From a virus: a stretch of DNA of 25,503 bases. Location of the stretch: IMG/VR virus record IMGVR_UViG_3300018416_000103, positions 1-25,503 of that record; one strand, written 5' to 3'. Numbering within the stretch: the first letter of the stretch is position 1; each line of letters begins with the position of its first letter. Below, piece by piece: positions 10,977-21,772 of the stretch. The translations under genes were made by a program, and so were the position numbers. The notes under the pieces are model-generated. The model searched no databases. It had not been told where the DNA came from and was given only the letters and a program-made list of their open reading frames with translations.

Positions 10977-11005
10977 TTGACATTGATTTGAATTTGTCCT
11001 ATAAT
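10977..11005 (+). promoter_or_regulatory. Sigma70-type promoter P4 (consensus -10)
   Basis: TTGACA at 10977-10982, 17-nt spacer, TATAAT at 11000-11005: both hexamers perfect. The first in-frame ATG of the next gene (11004) lies inside the -10, so translation must begin downstream; expected transcript start is near 11012. Confidence 0.9.
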
Positions 11006-11018
11006 GGACAACAATATT

Positions 11019-11762
11019 ATGAATATAAAAGAAATAGTACAAACACCATACACAACAAATCCTAGATTTGCACCTATCAATGATGTGGTTTTAAAACCAT
11101 ATACAAATGACTACTATAACGAAAGAGAGTACGAGTATAATCATTTAGGTGCAGAAATCTATTTTGAATCCGACATTGCAAAAAAAGAATGTTTAGTTGA
11201 AAAAACATCTGAAGCTATGCAAATGTGGGAGTTACCTTTTGTAGACATAGAAGAATTTGGTCTTGAAATACCAGATGATGTTATTATTATGCATAAAGGA
11301 AAAGTTGAGGCGTGTTTTGTTGCAATGGCAAGTGGTTGGAATCCTAGTAAAGTTGCAGGTATGACACTATCAGAAGTTCACGAACCTGTAGCAGATAGTG
11401 ATATGTTAAGAAAAGCAAGTGAAGGTATTTGGCGTGCTATGACAAGTGGTAAATCATTTCATAGATACACCTGGGGGATATCACCATTAAGATATCTAAG
11501 TAATCACCCTCATTGGTCTAAACCTGATTTTGAATCATTAGATGATTTATATTTTAGAGTTGAACACGAAAGAACATTAACAATAGATGAAGATACGGCA
11601 GCTTTTTTCATTGATGTAACGGTGAAAAGGTTACCTTTTATCTTTCATTTAAAAAATGAATACAAGAATTTAATAAAACAATCAATCAATAGTATGAGTG
11701 GTAATGTATTAAAGTATAAAAATTTAGAGAAAGTTAAGAGGTTGATAAATGAGGCAAATTAA
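11019..11762 (+). CDS. DUF3445 heme-dependent oxidative N-demethylase-like protein
   Basis: The 247-aa product starts at ATG 11019, since the ATG at 11004 overlaps the promoter -10; no Shine-Dalgarno exists and the leader would be about 7 nt. The family pattern is clear: S-G-W-N-P-S-K-V-A-G near 105-114 (PSxWxPxxKxG in the family), L-S-E-V-H-E-P-V near 117-124 (xIHxPVP), H-R-Y-T-W-G near 148-153 (xRxNW) and F-R-V-E-H-E-R-T-L near 179-187 (RVERQTL), followed by A-A-F-F-I-D-V. Characterised relatives oxidise dimethylamine or similar N-methyl substrates using heme. The usual bacterial protein is longer (about 300 aa or more), so this is a compact version. No partner subunit is seen nearby. Confidence 0.75.
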   Translation: MNIKEIVQTPYTTNPRFAPINDVVLKPYTNDYYNEREYEYNHLGAEIYFESDIAKKECLVEKTSEAMQMWELPFVDIEEFGLEIPDDVIIMHKGKVEACFVAMASGWNPSKVAGMTLSEVHEPVADSDMLRKASEGIWRAMTSGKSFHRYTWGISPLRYLSNHPHWSKPDFESLDDLYFRVEHERTLTIDEDTAAFFIDVTVKRLPFIFHLKNEYKNLIKQSINSMSGNVLKYKNLEKVKRLINEAN

Positions 11763-15317: not shown

Positions 15318-15707
15318 ATGGCAGATATACCTGATTATATGCGAGGTTTTGACCTTTCAGAAGATTATGGATTTACGCCTGTTAACAAGAAACCTACCGA
15401 GGTTCAAGAAAAGGTAGTTGTAGCTGAGAACTCAGAAACAAATATGGAACTTGCAAAAGTTAAATCTGATGTGTCATCAATAAAATCTATGATGAACGAG
15501 GTTATGCAAATAGTGGCAGAAAAAGAAACTATAACAAAAGAAGTTGCTGACGCTGACACACAAAAAAGATTCAAAGATATAGAAAAGGTAATATTACCAT
15601 TTCTGTATAATTTGAGTAAAAGCGATGAGCCATATATTCATTGGCCAAACAGAGGTCCAATTATCAAGGCTCAAATTGAGAAAGTCCTAAAACTAACTAG
15701 AGGTTAG
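15318..15707 (+). CDS. Conserved T4-like protein with C-terminal HWPNR motif
   Basis: A 129-aa protein: a variable N-terminus (MADIPDYMRGFDLSEDYGF), a coiled-coil-like middle (about 45-75) and a conserved end D-E-P-Y-I-H-W-P-N-R-G near 102-112 followed by I-x-x-Q-I-E-K-V-L. The ending recurs in T4-like marine phages (from memory). Function unknown. About 100 nt of non-coding DNA follows. Confidence 0.7.
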   Translation: MADIPDYMRGFDLSEDYGFTPVNKKPTEVQEKVVVAENSETNMELAKVKSDVSSIKSMMNEVMQIVAEKETITKEVADADTQKRFKDIEKVILPFLYNLSKSDEPYIHWPNRGPIIKAQIEKVLKLTRG

Positions 15708-15772: not shown

Positions 15773-15780
15773 AATAAATA
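15773..15780 (+). promoter_or_regulatory. Possible late promoter AATAAATA
   Basis: AATAAATA, seven of eight matches to the T4 late octamer, 26 nt before ATG 15807 with AAAAGGA in between. It would give the AlkB-type gene its own late transcript. The region is nearly all A/T, so chance is a real alternative. Confidence 0.35.
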
Positions 15781-15806
15781 TTTTTTTAACTTTAAAAGGA
15801 AAAGTA

Positions 15807-16892
15807 ATGATGAAAAAACTATCAATAAATGCTCGTTATTTTATTGCACCGTTGCTAATACTTGCAACATTATTTGGTGTGATAGCAGGTGGGCCTTGGG
15901 TTTGGACAGGTGTTGCTTTACTAGGTGTAGGAATTATTATTGATACACTTTTTACCAATCAAACTATGGGTGCTGGTTTTGATGAAGACGGAGAAACTAA
16001 CGCCAACCCACATTTACAAAATGCAGTAATGTACTTTATGTTACCTGTATTCATAGCATTACAATGTGCATTAGCATATCAGATTTACCACGGAATGGCA
16101 GGCGCTGAATTATTAGGTGCTGTATTGTCAACAGGTATTTTTGCTGGTATAGGTATCATCTATGGTCACGAACTAGCTCATACAAAAGGGTTCAGTTTCT
16201 TGATTGCAAGATGGATGATGGCATTATCTGGTTCAGCACATTTCTGTTATGCTCATGTTTATAATCACCATCTTGAATTAGGTTGTGAAGATGACCCAGC
16301 GACAGCACCACGAGGTCGTAGTATCTATGCACATTTAGCTAAGTCATATTTTGGTCAAAGTAAATTCTTGTATACAATGGAAATGCAAAGACTAAAAAGA
16401 TTAGGTGTGCCTTTCTTATCTTGGCAAAATAGATGGATAAGAGGATATGCAATGTCAGTACCAACAATAGCACTATTTTGGTTTGCTGGTGGTTGGTTAG
16501 GTGTAGCTTGTATGGCACTAATTTGGTTGATATCTAATTTTGAGTTAGAGGCACTAAACTATCTAGAACACTATGGTTTAATCAGAGAAAAAGGTTCGCC
16601 TATTGATTACAGACATAGTTGGGATAATTCAGCAATGTTTACAAGTTGGTTTTTCATAGAAATTGGTAGACAAGCTGACCATCACGATAGAGGTGAAACT
16701 CACTTTTGGGAATTAGATGAAGTAGGTGCTCCAAATACAGGACACGGATACTTTACTCTATTTGCATTAGCATTAATCCCACCATTATTCCACAAACTTA
16801 TGAAAAAAGAGTTAGCAAAGTGGGATGAAAACGAAGCTTCAGAAGGCGAGGCTAAAATCGCTAGAGAAATGAACGAGGTGGCAGGCTACTAA
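15807..16892 (+). CDS. alkB: AlkB-type alkane 1-monooxygenase-like di-iron membrane enzyme
   Basis: A 361-aa integral membrane protein with about six hydrophobic segments and the histidine boxes of the alkane hydroxylase family: H121-E-L-A-H125-T-K-G, H150-V-Y-N-H154-H155 followed by D-P-A-T-A-P-R-G-R-S-I-Y (very close to the DPASAxxGESIY of bacterial AlkB), the signature N-Y-L-E-H255-Y-G-L and R-Q289-A-D-H292-H293. Family members hydroxylate the terminal carbon of alkanes or related chains, using O2 and electrons from rubredoxin. Eight of the nine expected His are present; the first of the last box is Gln. No rubredoxin gene is in the window, so host electron donors would be needed. ATG 15807 is preceded by AAAAGGA; a second ATG follows at 15810. 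Substrate could also be a fatty or aromatic methyl group. This is not the DNA-repair AlkB. Confidence 0.9.
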   Translation: MMKKLSINARYFIAPLLILATLFGVIAGGPWVWTGVALLGVGIIIDTLFTNQTMGAGFDEDGETNANPHLQNAVMYFMLPVFIALQCALAYQIYHGMAGAELLGAVLSTGIFAGIGIIYGHELAHTKGFSFLIARWMMALSGSAHFCYAHVYNHHLELGCEDDPATAPRGRSIYAHLAKSYFGQSKFLYTMEMQRLKRLGVPFLSWQNRWIRGYAMSVPTIALFWFAGGWLGVACMALIWLISNFELEALNYLEHYGLIREKGSPIDYRHSWDNSAMFTSWFFIEIGRQADHHDRGETHFWELDEVGAPNTGHGYFTLFALALIPPLFHKLMKKELAKWDENEASEGEAKIAREMNEVAGY

Positions 16893-16898
16893 CCACCA

Positions 16899-16927
16899 TT
16901 GACAATTAAGTCCGTATCTGGTATAAT
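16899..16927 (+). promoter_or_regulatory. Sigma70-type promoter P6 (consensus -10)
   Basis: TTGACA at 16899-16904, 17-nt spacer, TATAAT at 16922-16927, 6 nt after the AlkB stop; expected start near 16934, with AAAGG before ATG 16959. It begins the exonuclease-gp33-gp59 set. Confidence 0.9.
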
Positions 16928-16958: not shown

Positions 16959-17645
16959 ATGAGTGAATTTATACATAAAGATACGGACTTGTCTTTACTT
17001 CCAAATACAAAAGGCAAGAAAATAGAGGGATACAGATTTTACGATATAGATGGTCAAAATTATCCATCTGTTACATCAGTTTTAGGCATACGAAAAAAAG
17101 AAGGTTTACAGAAGTGGCGTGATTCAGTTGGTAATGAAGTTGCTAATTGGGAAATGAACAGAGCTGCTAGGCGAGGTAAATCGTTTCATAAATTAGTTGA
17201 ACAATATCTCAATAACGAAACACCTTCTATTAGAGATGTACTACCACTAGGTCTATTCAGGTTAGCAAAACCTTACATAGACAAGATAGAAAACATAAGA
17301 TTATTAGAACAAATTATGGTGAGCCCGAAACTCACGATTGCTGGTCAAGTTGATTGTGTTGCTGAATATAATGGTAAATTGTCCGTTATAGACTTTAAAA
17401 CAGCAAACAAAGAACGAATAGAGGACTGGATAGAAAACTATTTTTTACAATGTACTGCTTATTCATCAATGTACGAAGAAACATTTGGTGAGAAGATAGA
17501 ACAAATAGTAGTATTGTTAGCCGCTGAAGACGGCACAATGACTGCTTATGTAAAAGACCCACAAGACTATATGAAAGAATTAGTTTTAAGTATAGAAACA
17601 TTTTACAGGTCTGTTATGAAGGAGTTATTTGAACCTGCTAAATGA
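16959..17645 (+). CDS. PD-(D/E)XK exonuclease (Cas4/RecB/MGME1-like)
   Basis: A 228-aa nuclease with all parts of the RecB-type core: G73-K-S-F-H77 (GxxxH) followed by E81, G-Q-V-D132 in the second strand, D145-F-K147 (DxK) and Q164-C-T-A-Y168 (QxxxY). The N-terminus has Y-P-S-V-T-S-V-L near 35-42, as in MGME1-like single-strand exonucleases. It probably processes DNA ends in phage replication or recombination, close to gp33, gp59 and gp32. It is the first gene after P6, and its 3' end is followed by a structured non-coding stretch. Confidence 0.9.
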   Translation: MSEFIHKDTDLSLLPNTKGKKIEGYRFYDIDGQNYPSVTSVLGIRKKEGLQKWRDSVGNEVANWEMNRAARRGKSFHKLVEQYLNNETPSIRDVLPLGLFRLAKPYIDKIENIRLLEQIMVSPKLTIAGQVDCVAEYNGKLSVIDFKTANKERIEDWIENYFLQCTAYSSMYEETFGEKIEQIVVLLAAEDGTMTAYVKDPQDYMKELVLSIETFYRSVMKELFEPAK

Positions 17646-17966: not shown

Positions 17967-18571
17967 ATTATGACGGCTTTTATGTATACAGAAAATATTT
18001 GGCAATCAAATTACATTTTGATAAAGATGAATATAATTACCACGATTATGATGGTCATGTGCATACCAAACTTGAAACATTTACTAAGAGAAACGATAGG
18101 TACTTTTACCATAAGTTAAGTGTAAAATATAATCAAGATGAAATAGAAGATTTTTTAGTTGCAAACTTTGTAAAAAATAAAAAGATATGGTCAGGTAATT
18201 TATTAGAAAAAGAAGCACATGAAATATATTTACAACATAAAAAAAGAAAAGAAAGTAGCTCATACTGGTTTAAAGAGGATTGTGGTAGAATACGGAACGC
18301 TCTTGATATGGACAATTCTGAACCCACCAATGCTCTTATTGTTAATAATGGCCAGCATCCAACACTTTTACGATTTTGTATTGGAAATAAGATTGGTCCA
18401 GAAACGGTTTTAATTATGGATTTTCATTTAAATTTTATAAAAGATTGGGATAAAAACATTTCAGAAAATGTAATCTGGCCTGGTGTCAGAAAAAAACTAA
18501 ACAAATTTAAACCTTTTGTTAGGTTTAATGAAACAGAAACTAAACTGATATTGAAGGAGGTATTTTTATGA
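17963..18571 (+). CDS. 59: Replicative helicase loader, gp59-like
   Basis: A 202-aa protein of the size of T4 gp59 (217 aa). It starts F-Y-V-Y-R-K-Y-L-A-I-K-L-H-F, with Y-N-Y-H-D-Y-D near 24-30, K-R-N-D-R-Y-F-Y-H-K-L-S near 42-53, I-E-D-F-L-V-A-N-F near 61-69 and a later H-P-T-L-L-R-F block. These blocks match gp59 of marine T4-like phages as I recall them. gp59 loads the gp41 helicase onto gp32-covered forks. Coupled to gp33 upstream and to the peroxiredoxin downstream by ATGA overlaps. Confidence 0.85.
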   Translation: MNYDGFYVYRKYLAIKLHFDKDEYNYHDYDGHVHTKLETFTKRNDRYFYHKLSVKYNQDEIEDFLVANFVKNKKIWSGNLLEKEAHEIYLQHKKRKESSSYWFKEDCGRIRNALDMDNSEPTNALIVNNGQHPTLLRFCIGNKIGPETVLIMDFHLNFIKDWDKNISENVIWPGVRKKLNKFKPFVRFNETETKLILKEVFL

Positions 18572-19077
18572 TAACAGTCGGTGATTATATGCCAGAGTAT
18601 AGACTACAAGCTTGTCTACCTGATAATACAATTGGTGAGATAGACACATTATGCGAAAATCATAAATGGAGTGTTTACTATTTTTATCCAAAAGATTTTA
18701 CATTTATATGTCCAACAGAAATTAGAGAAATGGACAGACTAGTAGATGAACATTTAAAGGTAGTTGGTTTAAGTGGTGATAATGAATATTGCAAAAAAGC
18801 TTGGAAAGAATCAAATCCTATGATAAAAGATATTAGACATCCATTAGCTGCTGATTCAGGTTTACATTTATCAAGTGAATTAAATGCTGTTAGTGATGAA
18901 GGCTTATGTTTAAGAACAACAGTTATAACAGATGAAAATAATGTCATACAACACATTTCAATGAACGCTCTAGATACTGGTAGAAATGTTGATGAAATTA
19001 TTAACACAGTAAAAGCTTTAAAATCAGGTGGTCTAACTGCTTGTAATTGGAAACCAGGAGATAGTTTTGTTGGTTAA
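18568..19077 (+). CDS. ahpC: AhpC-type 2-Cys peroxiredoxin
   Basis: A 169-aa peroxiredoxin with F-Y-P-K-D-F-T-F-I-C48-P-T-E (peroxidatic Cys48 in the PxxxTxxC box), K-K-A-W (76-79), H-P-L-A-A-D (91-96), R116 in C-L-R-T-T and the resolving Cys159 in T-A-C-N-W-K-P-G-D. This is the AhpC/Prx1 layout, slightly short of the usual 185-200 aa. It reduces H2O2 and organic peroxides in the cytoplasm; its usual reductase (AhpF/AhpD or thioredoxin) is not encoded here. GGAGG is 8 nt before the ATG, and the start overlaps gp59 (ATGA), so it is made with replication proteins. A phage peroxiredoxin may protect against oxidative stress, possibly from the encoded oxygenases. Confidence 0.93.
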   Translation: MITVGDYMPEYRLQACLPDNTIGEIDTLCENHKWSVYYFYPKDFTFICPTEIREMDRLVDEHLKVVGLSGDNEYCKKAWKESNPMIKDIRHPLAADSGLHLSSELNAVSDEGLCLRTTVITDENNVIQHISMNALDTGRNVDEIINTVKALKSGGLTACNWKPGDSFVG

Positions 19078-20881: not shown

Positions 20882-21772
20882 ATGGATTTTGAATCTTTAA
20901 AAACATCCAATAGTGGTTTTGATAAACTTACAAAAGCACTAGAAGAAAACCTCAATCCTGAGGACCAACAAAACAAAAACAAATATCAAGATGACCGAAT
21001 CTGGAAACCAGAGCTAGATAAAACTGGTAATGGTTATGCAGTCATTCGTTTTTTACCAGCAAGTGAAGGTGAAGATATGCCATGGGTAAGAGTATGGTCT
21101 CATGCATTTCAAGGACCTGGCGGCTGGTTTATTGAAAACAGTTTAACAACACTAGGTCATAAAGACCCTGTATCAGAAGAAAACACAAGATTGTGGAACA
21201 CAGGCGTGGATTCTGATAAAGATATTGCTAGAAAAAGAAAAAGAAAGTTATCATACTATTCTAACATTCTTGTTGTTAGCGACCCAAAACATCCAGAAAA
21301 CGAAGGCAAAGTAATGTTATTCAAATTTGGTAAAAAAATATTTGATAAGATAACAGAAGCAATGCAACCTGAGTTTGATGATGAAACACCTATTAACCCA
21401 TTTGACTTTTGGAAAGGTGCAAACTTCAAACTAAAAATTAGAAAGGTTGATGGTTTCTGGAATTACGACAAGTCAGAATTTGAGGCTGTTTCCCAAATAA
21501 AAGATAGTGATGATGAAATCAAAACTATTTGGGGAAAACAATATCCTCTAAAACCTTTCCTTGACCCTAGTAATTTTAAAACCTATGATGAACTCAAAGA
21601 GAAACTGAATAGGGTGATTACAGGGACAGGAAACTCAGCAACAGCTGAAGATGTGGACCTCCCGCCTGAAACATCTACAGCAAAGTCTGAGAAAAGTCCT
21701 GTGAACGCTATGTCTGAGGCTAGTGATAGTGATGATACACTAGATTATTTTAGTAAATTAGCTCAAGAATAG
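20882..21772 (+). CDS. 32: Single-stranded DNA-binding protein, gp32-like
   Basis: A 296-aa gp32 homologue (T4 gp32 is 301 aa). It has an N-terminal cooperativity region, the core with R-I-W-K-P near 39-43 and A-V-I-R-F-L-P near 53-59, a basic R-K-R-K-R-K at 117-122, Y-Y-S-N-I-L-V-V-x-D-P near 125-135, N-P-F-D-F-W-K-G-A-N-F near 171-181, and an acidic C-terminal tail (SEASDSDDTLDYFSKLAQ) that in T4 recruits replication partners. There is no Cys at all, so the zinc site of T4 gp32 is lost. It coats single-stranded DNA and works with gp59 and RNase H. Single-gene unit: early and late promoters before it and a strong terminator after it. Confidence 0.95.
   Translation: MDFESLKTSNSGFDKLTKALEENLNPEDQQNKNKYQDDRIWKPELDKTGNGYAVIRFLPASEGEDMPWVRVWSHAFQGPGGWFIENSLTTLGHKDPVSEENTRLWNTGVDSDKDIARKRKRKLSYYSNILVVSDPKHPENEGKVMLFKFGKKIFDKITEAMQPEFDDETPINPFDFWKGANFKLKIRKVDGFWNYDKSEFEAVSQIKDSDDEIKTIWGKQYPLKPFLDPSNFKTYDELKEKLNRVITGTGNSATAEDVDLPPETSTAKSEKSPVNAMSEASDSDDTLDYFSKLAQE

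Follow-up and report, generated by a model that had tools for sequence, protein, structure and literature searches.

A predicted membrane di-iron oxygenase of the AlkB fold, from a marine QxxHH family nearer XylM than AlkB, in T4-like ocean phages

The stretch of DNA analysed here (25,503 nucleotides, positions 1 to 25,503 of the IMG/VR virus record IMGVR_UViG_3300018416_000103; hereafter the window) carries a gene for an integral-membrane oxygenase among T4-like phage genes, which raises the question of whether the enzyme is an alkane hydroxylase and what a phage would gain from it. A preliminary description called it a phage-encoded AlkB-type alkane monooxygenase. The coordinates, strand and length that it gave are correct: the open reading frame is intact, running from an ATG at 15807 to a stop at 16892 (361 amino acids), with a Shine-Dalgarno sequence upstream. 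The motifs that it quoted are also present, namely HELAHTKG (H121/H125), H150-VYN-H154H155, DPATAPRGRSIY (163-174) and NYLEHYGL (251-258), but its list of histidine boxes omitted the last one, R288-Q289-A-D-H292-H293, which departs from AlkB at a metal ligand. The features of the gene are as follows.

15794..15804, forward strand: Shine-Dalgarno sequence AAAAGGAAAAG, a good match, upstream of the oxygenase ATG
15807..16892, forward strand: membrane di-iron oxygenase gene, AlkB fold, XylM-like QxxHH family, 361 amino acids
16167..16181, forward strand: His box 1, H121-E-L-A-H125, invariant (alignment to 8sbb/8f6t)
16254..16271, forward strand: His box 2, H150-V-Y-N-H154-H155 (alignment to AlkB structures)
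16293..16328, forward strand: DPATAPRGRSIY motif, residues 163-174
16557..16580, forward strand: HYG motif, N251-Y-L-E254-H255-Y-G-L (Fe2 ligands E271/H272 in FtAlkB)
16611..16625, forward strand: R269-H270-S-W-D motif, the preceding stretch 14 residues long compared with 19 in rubredoxin-linked AlkB
16668..16685, forward strand: His box 3, R288-Q289-A-D-H292-H293, with Q289 in place of the Fe2 ligand His311 of FtAlkB

The GC content of the gene is slightly above that of its neighbours (0.378, compared with 0.322 for the window), and its GC3 of 0.244 is within range. Purifying selection on the oxygenase is strong (pairwise dN/dS of about 0.04-0.16 for pairs with unsaturated dS), which suggests that the viral enzyme is functional.

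The gene had been assigned to the phage, and this assignment is borne out by its surroundings. Genes of phage type do lie on its flanks (gp32, exonuclease, RNase H and tail-tube initiator), and the window is collinear along most of its length with Pelagibacter phage Mosig (EXVC030M). Three neighbours serve as landmarks.

15318..15707, forward strand: upstream neighbour, 129 amino acids, 65% identical to the Mosig gene at 113460-113846
16959..17645, forward strand: downstream neighbour, PD-(D/E)XK exonuclease (PHROG 298), 64% identical to the Mosig gene at 112134-112817
20882..21772, forward strand: gp32 single-stranded DNA-binding protein, a phage hallmark, 81% identical to that of the pelagimyophage Mosig

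Between its homologues of the 129-amino-acid gene and the exonuclease, Mosig carries a GH108 gene and no oxygenase, and a search of Mosig found no relative of the oxygenase; the oxygenase therefore appears to sit in a swappable slot. A few of the IMG/VR matches to the oxygenase (L020, L150) appear bacterial, and an assembly chimera or bacterial contamination might be suspected here too. The probability of this is negligible, however: the flanks of the oxygenase recur in L001-L005 and its upstream side in L024, all contigs of other metagenome records, the order gp23-oxygenase-tail tube is found in many other contigs, and about 200 viral contigs carry relatives of the gene. The chimera that the preliminary description named as grounds for rejecting its proposal is excluded by these shared flanks and by the synteny with Mosig. 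Two other genes of the window may be mentioned. A gene at 11004-11762 encodes an HODM_asu-like domain (PF11927, haem-dependent oxidative N-demethylase; E 1.9e-15), has relatives in 18 viral loci and is possibly a second, putative oxidative auxiliary gene; it was rejected as a functional partner of the oxygenase, being confined among 27 records to the window's own phage group. A peroxiredoxin (AhpC-TSA) gene lies at 18568-19077, where Mosig has no match.

The family of the enzyme is indicated only broadly by domain models. Pfam FA_desaturase, a superfamily-wide model, matches the oxygenase (E 3.5e-27), and NCBIfam and PHROGs assign it no family. At a cut-off of E 0.001, no solved structure is related to it except two of AlkB from Fontimonas (E 5e-30 and 1e-28), and a profile made from 41 family members finds the same two (E 1.7e-37 and 8.6e-37) and nothing else convincing. 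The predicted model (mean pLDDT 78.8, pTM 0.82) matches AlkB 8f6t with a Z score of 35.5 over 349 residues and 8sbb with a Z score of 32.2; Foldseek of the model against AlkB gives E 4.7e-13. Model confidence is low near residues 151-165, so the fine geometry of the active site is not drawn from it. No viral model with this fold was found in BFVD at E 0.001 or better. Placement among desaturases, which had also been named as a refutation, was checked and is not seen: the nearest relatives in both fold and sequence are by far AlkB, and the stearoyl-CoA desaturase SCD1 reaches a Z score of just 4.6, so acyl-lipid or acyl-CoA desaturases are not its closest kin.

The enzyme could nevertheless be a hydroxylase or desaturase that modifies lipids and remodels membranes during infection, as proposed for cyanophage desaturases. 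The Pfam superfamily match is consistent with this, phage lipid desaturases have been reported before (Roitman 2018, as cited in PMC11480375), and fabA and a CarH-like B12 regulator adjoin the nearest bacterial copies. The fold is nevertheless that of AlkB and not of SCD1 (Z 35.5 vs 4.6), the phage records searched, cyanophages included, hold no close relative of the oxygenase, and the FadL/TodX porin in bacterial operons points to a substrate that is taken up from outside and catabolised. A role in lipid modification is thus unlikely, though it deserves some weight.

Within the AlkB fold, the metal site and the docking surface separate the phage enzyme from known alkane hydroxylases. In FtAlkB, nine histidines and a glutamate hold two irons; Fe1 is bound by H137, H141, H167, H172 and H314, and Fe2 by H171, H272, H311, H315 and E271 (PMC10113152). 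In the alignment to AlkB structures the corresponding residues of the phage oxygenase are H121, H125, H150, H155 and H292 for Fe1 and H154, H255, Q289, H293 and E254 for Fe2. Eight of the nine histidines are therefore retained together with the glutamate, and the set of nine is incomplete. Glutamine occupies the His311 position in every one of the 85 viral relatives aligned and in 80 of the 83 bacterial ones, and all 11 reference enzymes have histidine there. A glutamine in place of a metal ligand of AlkB might mean that the phage protein is catalytically dead or a regulatory relative. There is very little likelihood of this, as the glutamine is common to nearly all bacterial relatives, which lie in intact operons, and the phage copies are under purifying selection. 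A QxxHH third box also occurs in active front-end desaturases.

The residues of FtAlkB that dock rubredoxin are R143, R148, R169, R215, R284 and R287, and this six-arginine surface is not found in the phage oxygenase. R148 is replaced by Phe, R169 by Tyr and R143 by Lys, R215 is kept as R198, and the loop that bears R284 and R287 is five residues shorter, with both arginines gone. The spacing from HYG to HSW is 14 residues in 85 of 85 viral copies, in XylM and in the Polaromonas and Hydrocarboniclastica enzymes, compared with 19 in three AlkBs. The oxygenase shares this short spacing with XylM but has QxxHH where an XylM-type third box has HxxHH. In the tree, the oxygenase clade lies closer to XylM and to ferredoxin-reductase-linked hydroxylases than to rubredoxin-linked AlkB, although long branches to the reference enzymes lower the certainty of this deep placement.

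These findings bear on the view of the preliminary description that the enzyme is a canonical AlkB alkane 1-monooxygenase supplied with electrons by host rubredoxin. The AlkB fold, eight of the nine histidine ligands and a FadL/TodX porin near several bacterial relatives are in keeping with it. The glutamine at the His311 position, the shortened docking loop, the loss of R148, R169, R284 and R287, the tree (long branches notwithstanding) and the bacterial neighbours, among which a ferredoxin or ferredoxin-reductase recurs and no rubredoxin was seen to do so, all argue against it and make it highly improbable. Accordingly, what stands of the earlier assignment is the AlkB fold and membership in the family of membrane di-iron histidine-box oxygenases. 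Membership in the alkane hydroxylase family as such does not stand, given the separate clade, the glutamine at one of nine metal-binding histidines and the missing docking loop. Judged from its sequence, the oxygenase is not a canonical alkane 1-monooxygenase and is best described as an AlkB-fold enzyme of a marine QxxHH family that lies closer to XylM than to AlkB.

The bacterial relatives suggest where the electrons come from. Their oxygenase genes are commonly followed by genes for a truncated globin, a glutathione S-transferase (GST)-like protein, a 2Fe-2S ferredoxin or ferredoxin-FNR reductase, and a membrane protein of about 70 amino acids; a FadL/TodX porin is also often near, and no recurrent rubredoxin was seen among the recurrent neighbours. 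In Polaromonas the ferredoxin-reductase and a related hydroxylase form a natural fusion of 752 amino acids. The family is rare, being found in 11 of 368 Gammaproteobacteria and 3 of 385 Alphaproteobacteria (even samples, with centre genomes included). The nearest cellular copies of the window's oxygenase are in marine Gammaproteobacteria of about 1 Mb that carry dsrA. All nine genomes nearest the window's clade have a ferredoxin-reductase, with the oxygenase elsewhere in the genome; in the five of the nearest genomes that were examined for this, the reductase is grouped with the GST-like and 70-amino-acid genes, away from the oxygenase. Beside the nearest bacterial copies (L026-L035 and the L044 region) there is a CarH-like MerR/B12 regulator, mostly divergent and with fabA behind it, for which light control is possible. 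At L086 and the Methylophagaceae loci, divergent genes for NorQ/CbbQ-type AAA and VWA proteins adjoin the oxygenase operon, as for enzymes that need maturation of a metal site.

In contrast to the bacterial genomes, where the 2Fe-2S and FNR reductase partner is beside the gene or elsewhere in the genome, the 24 viral records examined, mostly fragments, contain neither this partner nor any 2Fe-2S ferredoxin (Fer2) or rubredoxin domain. The reported absence of rubredoxin from the window is thus correct, but rubredoxin is not the donor to look for: its absence is expected because the docking loop is lost and the bacterial partners are a [2Fe-2S] ferredoxin or an XylA-like ferredoxin-reductase. 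Electrons from the host, as had been proposed, would accordingly come from these carriers, which are present in related cellular genomes and absent from the phage contigs examined. Since the oxygenase is carried apart from its electron-supplying partners, the phages probably rely on the infected cell for them. The phage genomes may encode an electron carrier outside the fragments examined; Mosig is annotated with a 2Fe-2S ferredoxin.

The carriers of the family also suggest a substrate, namely a small methylated or organosulfur compound (e.g. dimethyl sulfide) from whose oxidation carbon, energy or sulfur would be gained; the phage would sustain this oxidation in sulfur-oxidising or methylotrophic hosts. 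Among the carriers are Methylophaga sulfidovorans (L086) and marine Gammaproteobacteria with dsrA, dsrA is present in all nine genomes nearest the window's clade (and in 4 of 10 other genomes tested), and the GST-like and porin partners are compatible with such a compound. This is a correlation, however, and relatives also occur in SAR86, OCS116 and Porticoccaceae, while dsrA is absent from two SAR86 genomes and one Hyphomicrobiales genome tested and from M. sulfidovorans itself, so we regard this particular substrate as quite unlikely. The signals for the host disagree, with core genes nearest SAR11 pelagimyophages and the oxygenase nearest sulfur-oxidising Gammaproteobacteria. Such signals can disagree because phage cargo moves between phages, and the host may be without the cognate pathway. 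A related phage infects OM43 (PMC9004378).

The oxygenase is not peculiar to one phage. Three scans of IMG/VR, which overlap and include the few apparently bacterial matches, turned up 24, 198 and 221 stretches with a match. Relatives of the gene are carried by about 200 viral contigs and occupy at least six genomic positions, several of which adjoin capsid, neck or tail genes.

Context 1: the window's slot
Context 2: adjoining neck and tail-sheath-stabiliser genes
Context 3: between the major head protein and the tail tube (L016-L018, L106-L107, L153-L166)
Context 4: a region that also holds genes for a ribose-phosphate pyrophosphokinase (c17) and for a membrane protein without a Pfam family (c5) (L108-L149)
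Context 5: L021-L023/L157
Context 6: L151/L152/L160

A phylogeny of 83 sequences places the viral copies among gammaproteobacterial genes in several separate phage clades, scattered among the bacterial ones. Supported branches require at least five changes of label between virus and bacterium, with the doubtful L020 and L150 counted in. The window's clade (support 100/99) is sister to marine gammaproteobacterial genes (97/87). The tree suggests that several T4-like ocean phage lineages acquired the oxygenase separately. At residues 94-99, phage copies are without a loop of about 15-20 residues that joins two transmembrane helices and is kept in 48 of 51 bacterial sequences, with at least three separate changes on the tree. 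Genes resembling 5-aminolevulinate synthase (Pfam Aminotran_1_2; cluster c18) are common in oxygenase-bearing phages (L108, L111-L114, L117, L119, L123, L124, L129 and others); viral AlaS has been published previously (PMC11480375).

The signals upstream of the viral genes suggest expression late in infection. The window has one such signal.

15773..15780, forward strand: AATAAATA, an inferred T4-type late-promoter-like motif (7/8 to TATAAATA) upstream of the oxygenase

The T4 late-promoter core TATAAATA lies within 120 nucleotides upstream of 30 of 74 viral copies, compared with 7.7% of other forward genes at the same loci; as the upstream regions are related, the 30 amount to support from perhaps three or four lineages and not to 30 independent cases, and the window's own motif has one mismatch. 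Where the oxygenase gene lies between head and tail genes, late expression would be expected anyway. Directly after the oxygenase and before the exonuclease, at 16899-16927, there is a perfect sigma-70 consensus promoter (TTGACA-17-TATAAT with an extended -10, 12/12), which suggests that the two genes may be under separate control.

The explanation that best accommodates these observations, and one that we hold to be probable, is that the gene is an auxiliary gene for a QxxHH di-iron monooxygenase that uses host electrons and replaces or boosts a host membrane oxygenase late in infection. The term auxiliary metabolic gene, already used in the preliminary description, suits a putative metabolic gene that is on a phage genome, has cellular relatives and is under purifying selection. 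The gene product is predicted to be an active integral-membrane di-iron monooxygenase with the AlkB fold. In bacteria, the oxygenase would be partnered by a GST-like protein and by a [2Fe-2S] ferredoxin or ferredoxin-reductase, often also by a FadL/TodX porin, and would oxidise a small hydrophobic substrate. The phage would supply the oxygenase alone, often expressed late alongside virion genes, and its enzyme would draw electrons from the host ferredoxin or ferredoxin-reductase. The phage copy may thereby replace or boost a membrane oxygenase that, once the host is shut off, would otherwise be lost through decay, and a host catabolic route could then run on during virion production, as argued for phage PsbA, PmoC and AmoC. 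A bolder proposal, possible but doubtful, is that QxxHH enzymes form a new class of membrane di-iron monooxygenases, which would bind the second iron through a 3-His/Gln/Glu site and act on a substrate of their own (perhaps a small organosulfur or methylated compound). On this proposal the class is present in abundant marine sulfur-oxidising and heterotrophic bacteria and was captured by several T4-like phage lineages, which run an unrecognised ocean oxidation step late in infection.

The occurrence of the gene in about 200 viral contigs and at several unrelated genome positions suggests that the reaction is likely important for infecting common ocean bacteria. If the substrate were known, an O2-dependent oxidation would join photosynthesis and ammonia and methane oxidation among the processes run by phages. 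The cellular QxxHH oxygenase, with its ferredoxin-reductase and GST-like partner, is probably annotated automatically as an alkane monooxygenase or fatty acid desaturase, and marine alkane oxidation would be overestimated if QxxHH oxygenases were counted as alkB. Neither oxidation genes carried by phages nor phage desaturases are new in kind. A search of the literature on alkB in phages yielded no more than a review citing viral hydrocarbon-degradation genes (vHYDEG; Ru et al. 2023, J Hazard Mater 459:132299, as cited there) and one unrelated oil-exposure study, and a study of pelagimyophage genomes reported a stearoyl-CoA desaturase and, in its main text, no alkane monooxygenase. In the literature searched, the QxxHH family with its XylA-like partner appears to be undescribed as such, and the analysis found no characterised enzyme that belongs to precisely this subfamily.

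Among known systems, the vHYDEG and the cyanophage lipid desaturases (Roitman et al. 2018), as they are cited in reviews, are similar as viral hydrocarbon-oxidation genes and viral genes of the FA-desaturase superfamily, respectively. AlkB (FtAlkB 8f6t/8sbb and P. putida AlkB) shares the fold, eight of nine histidine ligands and the glutamate beside the HYG histidine, but the phage enzyme has Gln at the Fe2 ligand His311 and is without the docking loop and most docking arginines. XylM/XylA of the TOL plasmid pWW0 is likewise a membrane di-iron histidine-box hydroxylase with the 14-residue spacing, and its reductase resembles the N-terminal 2Fe-2S and FNR partner of the bacterial relatives; however, identity is only about 28%, XylM has His where the QxxHH family has Gln289, and the phage copy has no adjoining reductase gene. 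The Polaromonas pPNAP01 ferredoxin-reductase/hydroxylase fusion and its Hydrocarboniclastica relative are the best plasmid matches (about 36% over the core) and have the same Fd-FNR electron supply, but both have His in box 3 and are fused to or adjoin the reductase, and Polaromonas has alcohol/aldehyde dehydrogenase neighbours. Pelagibacter phage Mosig has a collinear core genome around the oxygenase position, with gp32 81% identical, but differs in its GH108 gene at that position. Phage PmoC/AmoC and cyanophage PsbA are phage copies of one labile membrane protein of a catalytic or energy chain for which the host supplies the rest. The present phages would similarly carry one membrane protein and rely on the host for the remainder, although the enzyme is a different one and here the whole catalytic subunit is carried.
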